Part shown: in pieces, positions 22,278-27,367 of the stretch
Layout: each line of letters opens with the position of its first letter
Numbering within the stretch: position 1 is the first letter of the stretch
Assembly (NCBI GenBank): GCA_019637105.1
Contig: JAHBWF010000024.1
Location: forward strand, 1 to 62,671
From: Labilithrix sp.
GTDB taxonomy: Bacteria; Myxococcota_A; Polyangia; Polyangiales; Polyangiaceae
Direction: 5' to 3'
Length of the DNA: 62,671 nt
Position numbers and translations under genes: made by a program
The notes under the pieces: generated by a model
What the model was told of the DNA's origin: nothing
The model's database searches: none
Seen by the model: the letters and a program-made list of their open reading frames with translations, nothing else

Positions 22278-23789
22278 ATGTCGTCCGACGAGAAGAAACC
22301 GATCGGCCGCATCCTCCTCAAGCGCCGTCTCATCTCGCAGGAGGAGCTCGACAGGCAGCTCGCCACGCAGAAGACGGCGCGCGACGGCGTCCCGCTCGCG
22401 TCGCGCATCGCGTCGAGCGGCGTCGTCCCCGAGACGGAGGTCCTGCGCGCCCTCTCCGAGCAGTTCGGCGTCCCCGGCATCGATCTGAACCAGCTCGCGC
22501 TGTCGCTCGAGCACCTCGACATGGTCCCGCGCGAGGTCGCCGAGTCGAGCCGCGTCCTGCCCGTCCTGGTCCGCGAGGACCGCCTGTTCCTCGCGATGGG
22601 CAACCCGCAGGACAAGCGGGTGATCGACGAGCTCGAGTTCGTGACCGGGCGGAGGATCTACCCGTACGTCGCGATCTCGACGACGCTCGAGAAGACGATC
22701 CGCGACGCCTACGACGCGAAGGAGCAAGGGCAGAGGCACTACATCGGGCCCAGCGCGCCGCGCTCGGCGATCGACCGCGTGACGGGCGGCGGCGACGGCC
22801 CGCACCAGGACCGCCGCGAGCGCGAGAGCGTCCAGCCGGGCGGAGCGCCGTCGGTCGTCGTCGATCAGCAGATGGCGGAGTCGGCGGCCGAGGCCGCGCT
22901 CTCGACGACGGACTTCGGCGAGATGGGCGAAGAGGTCTCGCGGGTCGAGATGCTGACCGACGAGCTCCGCAACGCCGCCGGCCTCGATCCGTTCTCCGCG
23001 TCGCCGAGGACGAGCGCCTCCGGCAAGCGCATCCTCGTCGTCGACGACGAGGAGGACATCCGCAAGCTCGTGCGACGCCTCCTCACGGATCGCGGCCACG
23101 CCGTGATGGAGGCCGACCGCGGGCTCATCGCGCTCCGCCTCGTCAAGGAGGAGACGCCGGACCTCATCCTGCTCGACGCGATGCTCCCGGAGGTGCACGG
23201 CTTCGACATCGCGCGCCGGATCAAGGGGAGCGCGAAGTACGGCGCGATCCCCATCTTGATGATGAGCGCCGTCTACCGCGGCTGGCGCATCGCCGAGGAC
23301 CTCAAGGTCAACTACGGCATCGAGGACTACGTCGAGAAGCCGTTCCGCATCGCCGACCTCGTCTCGAAGGTCGACCGCCTCCTCGAGAACAAGCCGGGGA
23401 CGGCCCCGCCGCACGATCCGGAGCTCATCAACAACACGGCGGCGCGCTACCTCGAAGAGGGCATCGGCGCCTACAAGAACGGCGAGGTCGATCTCGCGAT
23501 CGGGCTCCTCAAGAAGGGCATCGCGATCGATCCCCTCGCCTACCGGCTCCGCTACCACCTCGCGCTCATCTACGGGAAGCGCGGCCAGTTCTACGACGGC
23601 ATCACCGAGCTCGAGCGCGCGGTCGACCTGAACCCGCGCCACTTCCCGGCGCTCAAGAACCTCGCCGTGCTCTACGAGAAGGCGGGGTTCAAGAACAAGG
23701 CCGTCGAGATGTGGGAGCGCTGCGTGCACACCTCCCCGGACAACGAGACGCGCGAGTCGATCAAAGCTCACATGATGCGCCTGCTCTGA
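22278..23789 (+). CDS. MshEN (GspE N-terminal)-receiver-TPR fusion protein
   Basis: 503 residues, 22 nt after tgt, with GGGAAAG upstream. Residues 1-150 resemble the N-terminal MshEN domain of GspE/PilB ATPases (IGRILLKRRLISQEELDRQL, then a second related repeat and the FLAMGNPQDKRVIDELEFVTG block). No ATPase domain follows. Residues ~249-370 are a receiver domain with VVDDEEDIRKL, phosphoacceptor Asp300 and the EKPF Lys. Residues ~385-500 form three TPR units. MshEN domains can bind c-di-GMP; here the Arg-Leu-Gly of the first motif is Pro-Ile-Gly, so binding is uncertain. It looks like a cytoplasmic adaptor linking phosphorylation, possibly c-di-GMP, and protein partners, perhaps for polar or pilus machinery (inference). 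Confidence 0.85.
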   Translation: MSSDEKKPIGRILLKRRLISQEELDRQLATQKTARDGVPLASRIASSGVVPETEVLRALSEQFGVPGIDLNQLALSLEHLDMVPREVAESSRVLPVLVREDRLFLAMGNPQDKRVIDELEFVTGRRIYPYVAISTTLEKTIRDAYDAKEQGQRHYIGPSAPRSAIDRVTGGGDGPHQDRRERESVQPGGAPSVVVDQQMAESAAEAALSTTDFGEMGEEVSRVEMLTDELRNAAGLDPFSASPRTSASGKRILVVDDEEDIRKLVRRLLTDRGHAVMEADRGLIALRLVKEETPDLILLDAMLPEVHGFDIARRIKGSAKYGAIPILMMSAVYRGWRIAEDLKVNYGIEDYVEKPFRIADLVSKVDRLLENKPGTAPPHDPELINNTAARYLEEGIGAYKNGEVDLAIGLLKKGIAIDPLAYRLRYHLALIYGKRGQFYDGITELERAVDLNPRHFPALKNLAVLYEKAGFKNKAVEMWERCVHTSPDNETRESIKAHMMRLL

Positions 23790-24022: not shown

Positions 24023-25694
24023 GTGAAGTTCCTCTGCGACAGCTGCAAGGCGAAGTACCAGATCGCCGACGAGAAGGTGGCGGGCAAGACCGTCCGGATG
24101 AAGTGCCGCAAGTGCGGCCACCAGATCGAGGTGCGCGCGGCCGTCACCGAGACCAGCGTCGCGAGCGCGCCGCCGCGTCCGCCGGCGAGCCCTTCGGCGC
24201 CGCGTCCGCCGATGAAGAGCGGCCTCGCGACGAGCCTCTCGGCCGCGAAGCCGCGCGCCCCGTCCGCCGCGCCCGGCGGCGCGCTCGCGGGCGCCTTCAA
24301 GAGCAACGTCCACGACGCTCCGGCGAGCGCGCCGGGGGACCGTCCCTCGGCGTCGATCGAGCTCAGCGTCACCGACGAGTGGTACGTGGCGATCAACGGG
24401 GTGCCGGTCGGGCCGGTGCGGATCTCGGAGCTCCGTCGAAAGGCGGCCGGCGGCGCCGTCACCGAGGAGTCGCTCTGCTGGCAGGAGGGCCTCGAGGAGT
24501 GGCGTCCGATCCGGAGCATCCCCGAGCTCGCCGCCCTCGTCCGCGAAGCCGCGGAGGGGAACCGGCCGTCGCTCATCGCGACGCCTCCGGAGCCCTCCGT
24601 CGCGCCGCGCGCGCCGACGGTCCATGCCCCGTCGGCGCCTCAGCCGGCCTTCTCGGCTCCGCCGCGGAACACGCCGCCGCCGCCCCGCGCCGCGAGCCGA
24701 TGGCCCCGTCGGTGCCCGCGGCCGCGGGCGCAACGTCGTGCCGCTGCGCCCGGCGGCGAGCGCTCCGGCGATCGACGAGCTGCCGCTCACGACCGCGCCG
24801 CTGACCGGCGGAGCCGCTCCGGCCGCCGCGCTGGCGCCGTCCTTCGCGCCCGCCCCGCCCGCGCCGATGTTCTCGGCGCCGCCCGCGTCCGCGCCGCGGC
24901 CGGATCCGTTCGCGCCGGCGGCCGATCCGTTCGCCGCGGCGGCGACCGATCCGTTCGCGGCGCCCGCGCCCGCGCCGCTCGCCGCTCCCTTCGCCGAGCG
25001 CGCGAGCATGGCGTCGGTCGCGGCGGCGCCGCCTTACGCGCCGCAGAAGAAGGGCGTCCCGCTCTGGTTCTGGCCGATCCTCGTCCTCGCGCTCGGCTTC
25101 GGCGGCGGGATCGCCTTCATCGTGTTCCGTCCGCCGCAGGCGCCGGCGCCCGTCGTCATCCAGGTCCCCGCGCCGGCGCCGACGCCCACCGTGGCCACGA
25201 AGGACGACGACGTCCCGCCCCCGACGGCGTCGGCCGACCCGAGCGCCCCGACGAGCGCCGAGGCGAAGGGCAAGCCGGTCGCGGTGGCGGCGAAGGGCGC
25301 GACGACGAAGACCGCCGACGTCCCCGAGAAGAAGGGGCTCGATCTCGGCAACCTCGTCCCGAACGGCGGCGGCCCCAACGTCGGACCGAACACGTCGCCG
25401 GGCGCGGGCTCGGGCGGCGGGCTCGATCAAGCCGGCGTCGAGCGCGTCGTCGCCGTGCACCGCAACGGCGTGAAGCGCACCTGCTGGGAGCGCGGCGGGT
25501 CGGACCAGAAGTCGAGCGTCAACGTCACGGTCACCGCGAACGTCGCGCCCAACGGGAGCGTCTCGAGCACGTCGTCGAGCGGTGACGATCCCGTGGTCGC
25601 GAAGTGCATCGAGAACCAGGTCAAGACCTGGCAGTTCCCGGCGCCCGGCGCGAGCACGACCATCAACATCCCGTTCAAGTTCGTCCGCCAATAA
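24023..25694 (+). CDS. GltJ/AgmX-like zinc-ribbon, GYF, TM, TonB-C protein (frame disrupted)
   Basis: Starts MKFLCDSCKAKYQIADEKVA with the zinc-ribbon pairs CDSC and CRKC (residues 5-36). A GYF-2 domain follows at ~112-165 (EWYVAINGVPVGPVRISELR, CWQEGLEEWRPI). A Pro-rich linker is entered in this frame. After ~24700 coding character moves to the frame ending at 25694. That frame has DPFAAAATDPFAAP repeats, a transmembrane helix PLWFWPILVLALGFGGGIAF, a linker, and a C-terminal AgmX/TonB-like domain with GVKRTCWERGG, a lone second Cys and KTWQFPAPG. The first frame alone stays open to 25585 but becomes Arg-rich. This order is that of Myxococcus GltJ (AgmX), a focal-adhesion motility protein whose cytoplasmic ZnR and GYF domains contact MglA/MglB. 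No other glt genes are nearby. Confidence 0.75.
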
Positions 25695-25738: not shown

Positions 25739-26596
25739 GTGAGGAGCACACGCGTCTCGATCTTCCTCGTCGGCCTCGCCGTCCTCCTCGGCGCGCTCAC
25801 CGACACGCGAGGCGCGCGGGCCGACGAGATCGCGCCGGGCCTCGAGGGCGCCGACCTCCGGGCGCGCGCGCAGGCCGAGCTGAAGCGCCTCGTGTCCGCC
25901 CTGCGCGACGAGGATCGTCGGCGCCTCGTCGGGGTCTACGCGGCCTTCGACGCCAGCGCGGCCGATCCGTTCGCCCAGGTCGCGTGCGACGACGACGGCG
26001 ACTACGTCGTCGTCGTCTCGGACGCGATGCTCCGCCTCCTCACGCACGTCGCCCGCGCGGCGAGCTACGACGAGGCGGACGGCTCGCGCAAGGTCGAGGA
26101 GTACGCCGCGTTCGTCGCGCGCGCGCAGCCCCTCGGCCGCCGGCTCTTGCCGCCGCCGCCCGGCTTCCACGTCGCCGAGGGCCGCGGGGCGACCTACGCG
26201 GAGCGGTTCGCCGAAGCGCTCGGCTTCGTCCTGGCGCACGAGCTCGCGCGCCTCCGCGCGGGCGATCTCGCGTGTCCGAGGCCGACCGAGACGAAGGAGC
26301 GGGGCGACGACGACTGGACGAGCGCGGAGCAGCGAGGGGCGGCCGCGATCGCCGCCCGCGTCTACCCGCGCCACCAGGACGTCCGCGACGCCGAGGCCGT
26401 CGATCGCGCGACGGAGGGCGGGAGGTCGTCGCGCGGCGCGCTCGCGGTCCTCCGGTTCTTCGCGGAGCTCGAGGCGGAGCGCGCGCGACGCCCCGGCGGC
26501 TTCTCGCCGACCTACCTCGCGCACCATCCGTCCGCCTCGGCGAGATCGGCGCGCCTGCGCCGCGCCCTCGAGGTCCGCGAGCGCGCCGGCGAGTGA
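25739..26596 (+). CDS. Secreted M48-like metallopeptidase homologue lacking a zinc His
   Basis: 285 residues from GTG 25739, 44 nt after the GltJ-like gene. Signal peptide: basic MRSTRVS, hydrophobic IFLVGLAVLLGAL, cleavage near ARADE. The body follows the M48 plan: a strand-turn DDGDYVVVVSDAMLRLL, the active-site helix FVLAHELARLRAGD (HELAR at 167-171) and a C-terminal HHPSASARSARLRRAL similar to the M48 THPxxxxRI block. The second zinc-binding His of HExxH is Arg171, so hydrolysis is doubtful. It may be a pseudo-peptidase that binds protein partners in the periplasm. Acidic and Arg-rich segments make the rest hard to place. Confidence 0.6.
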   Translation: MRSTRVSIFLVGLAVLLGALTDTRGARADEIAPGLEGADLRARAQAELKRLVSALRDEDRRRLVGVYAAFDASAADPFAQVACDDDGDYVVVVSDAMLRLLTHVARAASYDEADGSRKVEEYAAFVARAQPLGRRLLPPPPGFHVAEGRGATYAERFAEALGFVLAHELARLRAGDLACPRPTETKERGDDDWTSAEQRGAAAIAARVYPRHQDVRDAEAVDRATEGGRSSRGALAVLRFFAELEAERARRPGGFSPTYLAHHPSASARSARLRRALEVRERAGE

Positions 26597-26644: not shown

Positions 26645-27367
26645 ATGGGTCACGGTCGATCGTTCGGCGTCCTCGCGCTCGTGGCTGCCTCGGTCGCCGC
26701 GCCGCTCGCCTGCGGCAGCAACACGCCCGACGCCAAGGCGAGCTTCAGCCTGGGAGGCGACGCCGGCGCCTGTCCGCCCGGACAAGCGTGCGCGGCCCCG
26801 GCGAACGACTGCCAACCCGGTCAACCCTGCGCGCCGCCGAGCTGCCCGCCGGGCCAGGCGTGCCCGCCGCCGCAAGGCTCGGCCGGCCAGCTCGGGACCG
26901 TGCACACGACCGATCCGAACGCGCTCGCGTCGCTCCTCGCCGCCGCGGCCGCCGCCGGCTCGGCGTGGCTCGGACCGGCGAGCGCGATCGCCGATCCGGC
27001 GGAGGCCGGGCTCCGCGCGGCCGCCGCGAAGTACGCCCCCGGGATGAGCGCGGACGGCCAGGTCGCGAAGGGCGACCTCGCCGAGGGCGGGCACGTCGAC
27101 TTCATCGTCAACCTGGAGCCGTCCAAGTGCTACACGATCGTCGCGTACGGCGCCGGCGTCGTGGACCTCGACGTGAACCTGCTCGCGCCGCCGCTCTACA
27201 ACTTCCTCGCCGGCCAGGACGGCATGGCCGGGCCGACCGCGGTGATCGGCGCCGCGCCGAAGCCGATGTGCCCCGTCATCCCGCTTGCGGTGCCGTACAA
27301 GGTCGATCTCCACGCGAAGCAGGGAGGCGGCACCGTCGCGGCCCAGCTCTACTCGAAGCCGAAGTGA
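26645..27367 (+). CDS. Cys-rich N-terminal lipoprotein, unknown function
   Basis: 240 residues with a lipoprotein signal peptide ending APLAC (Cys at about 23). The mature N-terminus carries CPPGQAC-type repeats: CPPGQAC, CQPGQPC, CPPGQAC. They form a Pro/Gly/Cys-rich tether of ~55 residues that may be disulfide-cross-linked. The C-terminal domain (GQVAKGDLAEGGHVDFIVNL, SKCYTIVAYGAGVVDLDVNL) resembles a small beta-sandwich of the kind found in extracellular myxobacterial lipoproteins. It lies 48 nt after the M48-like gene and may be co-transcribed. Not recognised. Confidence 0.7.
   Translation: MGHGRSFGVLALVAASVAAPLACGSNTPDAKASFSLGGDAGACPPGQACAAPANDCQPGQPCAPPSCPPGQACPPPQGSAGQLGTVHTTDPNALASLLAAAAAAGSAWLGPASAIADPAEAGLRAAAAKYAPGMSADGQVAKGDLAEGGHVDFIVNLEPSKCYTIVAYGAGVVDLDVNLLAPPLYNFLAGQDGMAGPTAVIGAAPKPMCPVIPLAVPYKVDLHAKQGGGTVAAQLYSKPK

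Follow-up and report, generated by a model that had tools for sequence, protein, structure and literature searches.

A GltJ-like gene of Labilithrix sp. located away from the glt genes and behind an MshEN-receiver-TPR regulator gene

We analyzed a 62,671-nucleotide stretch of DNA from Labilithrix sp. (contig JAHBWF010000024.1, positions 1 to 62,671 of the forward strand; referred to as the window) that carries a gene resembling gltJ (agmX) of Myxococcus xanthus. The gene is part of a run consisting of queA, tgt, a gene for a regulator with MshEN, receiver, and TPR domains, the GltJ-like gene itself, a gene that we term p26, a lipoprotein-like gene, a dprA-like gene, and topA. In the assembled sequence, the GltJ-like gene is divided into two halves that lie in different reading frames. 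Relatives encode the same protein in one frame. It falls in a clade of GltJ-like proteins whose genes lie apart from the glt genes, usually directly behind the MshEN-receiver-TPR regulator gene. The features of the locus are collected in Table 1.

Table 1. Features of the GltJ-like locus and its immediate neighbors (positions in the window)
Feature	Position	Strand	Basis
N-terminal half of the GltJ-like gene	24023..24691	+	PF13717 and PF14237 over cut-off
Zinc ribbon	about 24023-24142	+	PF13717; match to 7zok
GYF domain	24380-24529	+	GYF_2 (PF14237); match to 7z3c
Stretch with two reading-frame changes	24646..24730	+	Codon-position GC phase; DNA alignment to three relatives
C-terminal half of the GltJ-like gene, through the stop codon	24731..25694	+	NF033768; continuous with the N-terminal half in 25 relatives
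Hydrophobic transmembrane helix	about 25056-25127	+	Sequence read by eye
AgmX/PglI C-terminal domain, predicted TonB/TolA fold	25422..25691	+	NF033768
Partner gene (MshEN, receiver, TPR)	22278..23789	+	PF05157, PF00072, and TPR families over cut-off
p26, downstream neighbor (previously "M48-like")	25739..26596	+	No family over cut-off
Lipoprotein-like gene, cysteine- and proline-rich by eye	26645-27364		No Pfam or NCBIfam match over cut-off

Pfam scores in the frame of 24023 were 43.8 bits for the zinc ribbon (cut-off, 30.3) and 64.7 bits for the GYF domain (cut-off, 25.8). The best solved-structure match of each was an entry named "Adventurous gliding motility protein X," with E-values of 7.3e-11 for the zinc ribbon and 1.6e-9 for GYF. 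The AgmX/PglI C-terminal domain (AgmX_C) was found in the frame of 24624 with 47.6 bits (cut-off, 40), or 51 bits when the genome was searched. The order of elements is zinc ribbon, proline-rich stretch, GYF, proline-rich stretch, helix, proline-rich stretch, and AgmX_C. A preliminary description of this locus had proposed a GltJ/AgmX-like domain order. That likeness holds, but the exact order does not, as proline-rich stretches also separate the zinc ribbon from GYF and GYF from the helix. The product would be an inner-membrane protein of about 540 to 560 residues with one membrane helix, presumably oriented with its zinc ribbon and GYF domain in the cytosol and a proline-rich arm ending in its C-terminal domain in the periplasm. 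This domain contains two invariant cysteines and is predicted to have a TonB/TolA fold over its whole length. TIGR01352 did not reach its cut-off (27.1), scoring 14.9 with the window and 27.0 with the best relative, and there was no further family of note among the VIA-align matches listed. The window's own genome (G000) holds 17 AgmX/PglI C-terminal domains over the cut-off, including the one in the window.

To place the division of the gene, we used the guanine-plus-cytosine (GC) content of codon positions. The GC-rich third position changes phase between intervals starting at 24550 and 24730, and the bridge between the halves is in the third frame. Because the bridge peptide recurs in an intact relative (L006), two frame offsets are supported, and they join the halves through a proline-rich linker as had been proposed. 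One offset lay near 24726 in all three DNA alignments to relatives. In the same alignments, the other had no single place within about 24646-24711, which is a repetitive stretch. A single open frame runs from the zinc ribbon to the C-terminus in 25 of 29 related loci, and the remaining 4 are cut short by contig ends. Among named genomes, a Labilithrix sp. metagenome-assembled genome (L095) is the closest in which the gene is intact. The nearest relative differed at codon positions 1, 2, and 3 by 1, 0, and 22 bases in the N-terminal half and by 15, 12, and 61 in the C-terminal half, where the codons compared were 92% identical to those of an intact relative. Judged from these substitutions, both halves look to be under purifying selection. 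Since every locus not cut by a contig end is intact and both halves look selected, the frame changes are probably not biological. Programmed frameshifting and two separate genes were both ruled out, as a single frame encodes the entire protein in relatives.

An assembly or sequencing error is the most likely cause of the split, with a recent lesion second. By the latter account, which we consider unlikely, the strain carries a true recent pseudogene in which two real offsets abolished a GltJ-like protein kept by its relatives. The assembled sequence does contain both offsets. The seven neighboring genes (queA, tgt, regulator, p26, lipoprotein-like gene, dprA-like gene, and topA) are open at full length and match relatives, and therefore errors are not spread across the region. 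The GC content of 24640-24740 is 82%, but 6.4% of the 100-base stretches in the window reach this value, so that GC is no strong argument for error. An error is nevertheless plausible here, as some 80 bases of repetitive, GC-rich linker hold both offsets. The C-terminal half also keeps a third-position-dominated pattern of change and the GC phase of coding DNA, which speaks against a pseudogene, although a very recent lesion would leave both in place.

We then compared the protein with GltJ, the name that replaced AgmX (PMC3169522, in part). The cut-off of NF033768 was exceeded, as described above, but NF033761, the GltJ equivalog with a cut-off of 450, scored only 83 and 15 bits with the two halves. 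All eight of the intact clade members that were scored with this profile gave 67 to 127 bits, and assignment as a GltJ equivalog was rejected on these values. The cut-off is strict, since even L173, a neighbor of a GltE-like gene, reached only 172 bits. No GltJ over the cut-off was found in the window's own genome, for which no known GltJ genome was run as a positive control, or in any of 25 relatives. The same was true of 282 genomes of the phylum, again with no positive control and with scoring confined to the top few candidates per genome. Absence of gltJ is therefore not proven.

A midpoint-rooted tree was built from 92 zinc-ribbon proteins, the window row, and M. xanthus GltJ (94 rows, 205 columns), leaving out proteins of fewer than 400 residues, window copies, and duplicates. 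On this tree we defined the window clade, which comprises 59 loci besides the window. M. xanthus GltJ fell outside this clade both here and in a tree of the zinc-ribbon and GYF regions (98 columns, 92 rows, rooted on L049). In the second tree it was the sister of the window clade, with support of 100 for the node that joins them and 97 for the window clade by itself, a placement that depends on the root and rests on about 98 residues. The zinc-ribbon and GYF matches and this sister placement speak for the GltJ-like character proposed at the outset; full GltJ membership is not supported. Other zinc-ribbon/GYF proteins occur in these genomes. A second such membrane protein, with a different C-terminus, is encoded on contig C102 of the window's own genome (L077:458-2173, minus strand). 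A third group (L156, L159, L160, L192, L195, L197, and L201) mostly has a cysteine-rich tail; the AgmX_C profile had no match in six of these and 0.7 bits in L195.

The gene had been described as standing alone, a view that overlooked the regulator gene directly upstream. We widened 20 of the 29 related loci to examine their neighborhoods and found the regulator upstream in 18; L065 ends at the gene, and L068 has no regulator. Among loci with at least 900 bases upstream, which omits L158 from the window clade and L141 from the others, the regulator was directly upstream in 44 of 58 window-clade members. It was upstream in none of the 25 loci of the C102-type group, mostly hand-picked places from the GltJ search of the 25 relatives, and in none of 7 loci with other zinc-ribbon/GYF types. 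At 1e-40 or better, the regulator was present in 40 of the 282 phylum genomes, and in at least 30 of these 40, a lower bound, a window-type match starts 10 to 251 bp downstream of it. Eight of the 44 regulator-paired loci had no same-strand tgt match in the stretch examined (6 of them with at least 6 kb upstream), and so the pair is not merely a by-product of the tgt neighborhood. Four clade members without the regulator gene (L115, L130, L151, and L153) have tgt directly upstream instead. Taken together, these data suggest that the regulator and the GltJ-like gene are a conserved, little-studied two-gene unit. No report on the pair was found among the titles and abstract openings listed.

The wider surroundings agree with the earlier placement of the gene outside a glt cluster, as its neighbors are queA, tgt, the regulator, the dprA-like gene, and topA. 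queA, tgt, and topA scored over their family cut-offs, and the dprA-like gene scored 125 bits (cut-off, 191). At least one homolog of these five lies beside the gene in all 20 neighborhoods, in which glt genes were not searched for individually. The downstream neighbor p26 had been taken for an M48-like gene, which did not hold: p26 had no Pfam or NCBIfam match over the cut-off, and it reads HELxR at the place where HExxH is expected, both in the window and in its three closest relatives (L095, L096, and L097). HExxH occurs in 2 of the 11 p26 homologs listed (HEVAH in L117 and HEARH in L102), at sites that are unaligned. Because there was no family match, HELxR replaced the motif, and p26 was matched in only 11 of the 20 neighborhoods, we rejected an M48 peptidase as a partner. 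The lipoprotein-like gene recurs in the neighborhoods of several relatives.

We also searched the window's own genome (334 contigs, 91.5% completeness) for motility genes. Here, the results were mixed with regard to the genes that the preliminary description had named: mglA, mglB, and a GltE-/GltG-like cluster are present, but gltJ over the cut-off is not. MglA and MglB matched solved proteins at 5.4e-109 and 2.8e-70, respectively. The cluster, on contig C57 (L179:8099-16404), has a GltG-like gene with 305 to 308 bits (cut-off, 650) and a GltE-like gene with 54 bits (cut-off, 225), and no gltJ match was found on that contig. Neighbors labeled GltD-like and GltF-like were so named from weak similarity, size, and position only, with no gliding family matched. 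There are six MglA-like matches in this genome compared to one each in two other genomes of the genus (G009 and G011). Several MglA-like GTPases could therefore serve different zinc-ribbon proteins.

The zinc ribbon of GltJ binds MglA-GTP, and its GYF domain binds MglB. We favor, with about even confidence, a model in which the locus is a single gene. Its product would be a GltJ-like effector of MglA and MglB that has a TonB-like arm in the periplasm and is under the control of the partner regulator. MglA-GTP, acting on the zinc ribbon, and MglB, acting on GYF, would position this protein at a pole or patch. The regulator, once its receiver is phosphorylated, would set when or where the GltJ-like protein acts, and the periplasmic arm may pass a state or force to an envelope partner, possibly in movement. 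A phosphorylatable receiver has an acidic pair, a phospho-acceptor Asp, a Ser or Thr, and a Lys. In 50 aligned regulators, we found Asp300 in 49, Ser330 in 50, Lys354 in 50, and each residue of the acidic pair in 49.

Several observations weigh against this model. Much of the gene pairing accompanies queA and tgt, which are present in order in 16 of the 20 neighborhoods, and gene pairing by itself is no proof of joint function. Fourteen of the 58 clade members have no adjacent regulator, and 10 of the 35 phylum genomes with a window-type match (1e-40 or better) have no regulator match at 1e-40. In G009 and G011, which are 98 to 100% complete, neither the regulator nor the window-type gene was matched, yet both keep MglA; thus, MglA does not require the two-gene unit. 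Several kinds of zinc-ribbon/GYF protein coexist in these genomes, and binding of MglA by the window protein is therefore not certain. For the C-terminal domain, the Foldseek E-values were weak, the best being 0.013 to a match that is not a TonB. Finally, the cyclic di-GMP (c-di-GMP) motif of the MshEN domain is degenerate. The motif is RLG...G...L...L..Q in both repeats, though a perfect motif may not be needed (PMC5013675, in part). The first Arg is present in 1 of 50 sequences in motif I and in 19 of 50 in motif II, and Gly10 of motif I is present in 2 of 50. These counts weaken the case for c-di-GMP control through MshEN. With the receiver residues intact and this motif degenerate, phosphorylation would be the likelier input to the regulator.

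The predicted fold could also be read as that of an envelope energy transducer of the TonB/TolA type, driven by an ExbBD-like motor and having no tie to MglA or motility, with the zinc ribbon and GYF domain binding other partners. Among the proteins that carry the 17 AgmX_C domains of this genome, several of those read have no zinc ribbon, and the neighbors are not glt genes (motor genes were not searched for), both of which fit such a transducer. We nonetheless find it doubtful, because both the zinc ribbon and GYF have the AgmX/GltJ domains as their best match among solved structures. MglA was also matched in all 35 window-type phylum genomes (1e-40), but MglA is common and these genomes are related. 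In a survey of 80 genomes that we selected, MglA was present in 73, and the 7 that lack it all fall among the genomes listed as having no window-type match; co-occurrence with MglA is thus too common to inform on a link. Alternatively, the protein may serve as GltJ in this lineage and belong to the gliding machine, with its gene lying apart from the other glt genes. The shared domain order, the sister placement of M. xanthus GltJ in the zinc-ribbon/GYF tree, and GltE-like and GltG-like genes without an adjacent gltJ in the same genome would all be expected in that case. However, the GltJ profile scores are far below the cut-off, though this is strict, the tree placement relies on 98 columns, and the zinc-ribbon/GYF protein of C102 competes for the role. 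In addition, the portion of PMC3169522 consulted mentions no response regulator paired with glt genes. We regard this alternative as quite improbable.

We suggest, only tentatively, that the pair is a widespread signaling unit of the Polyangia that reads a phospho-signal and the MglA/MglB polarity switch and gives its output through the TonB-like arm to the cell envelope, independent of the gliding machine. Were such a separate, regulator-linked unit confirmed in genomes without a gltJ over the cut-off, the polarity switch would probably have outputs beyond gliding and pili, and the zinc-ribbon/GYF module could serve generally as an adaptor of MglA.

Among known systems, the closest is GltJ (AgmX, MXAN_4862) of M. 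xanthus, which likewise has a zinc ribbon, GYF, one helix, and an AgmX_C/TonB-like C-terminus. Within the gliding machine, GltJ is listed among the effectors of the MglA polarity switch (PMC12288465, in part). In contrast to GltJ, the window gene lies outside the gltD-J (G1) cluster with no glt neighbors and is paired with an MshEN-receiver-TPR gene. GltG (PglI) also ends in a TonB-like AgmX_C domain, where NF033760 gave 25 to 36 bits with the window and some clade members, but its N-terminus is an FHA domain (PMC3169522, in part) as opposed to the zinc ribbon and GYF found here. The GltG-like protein that the genome itself encodes on C57 is of full length. MshEN domains are likewise part of response regulators such as Bd2402 of Bdellovibrio (PMC5013675, in part). 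Compared with Bd2402, by its description only, the partner regulator has C-terminal TPRs and a degenerate motif and adjoins a GltJ-like gene. Relative to TonB and TolA themselves, the window protein differs in having a zinc ribbon and GYF in front of the C-terminal domain and the two invariant cysteines within it.
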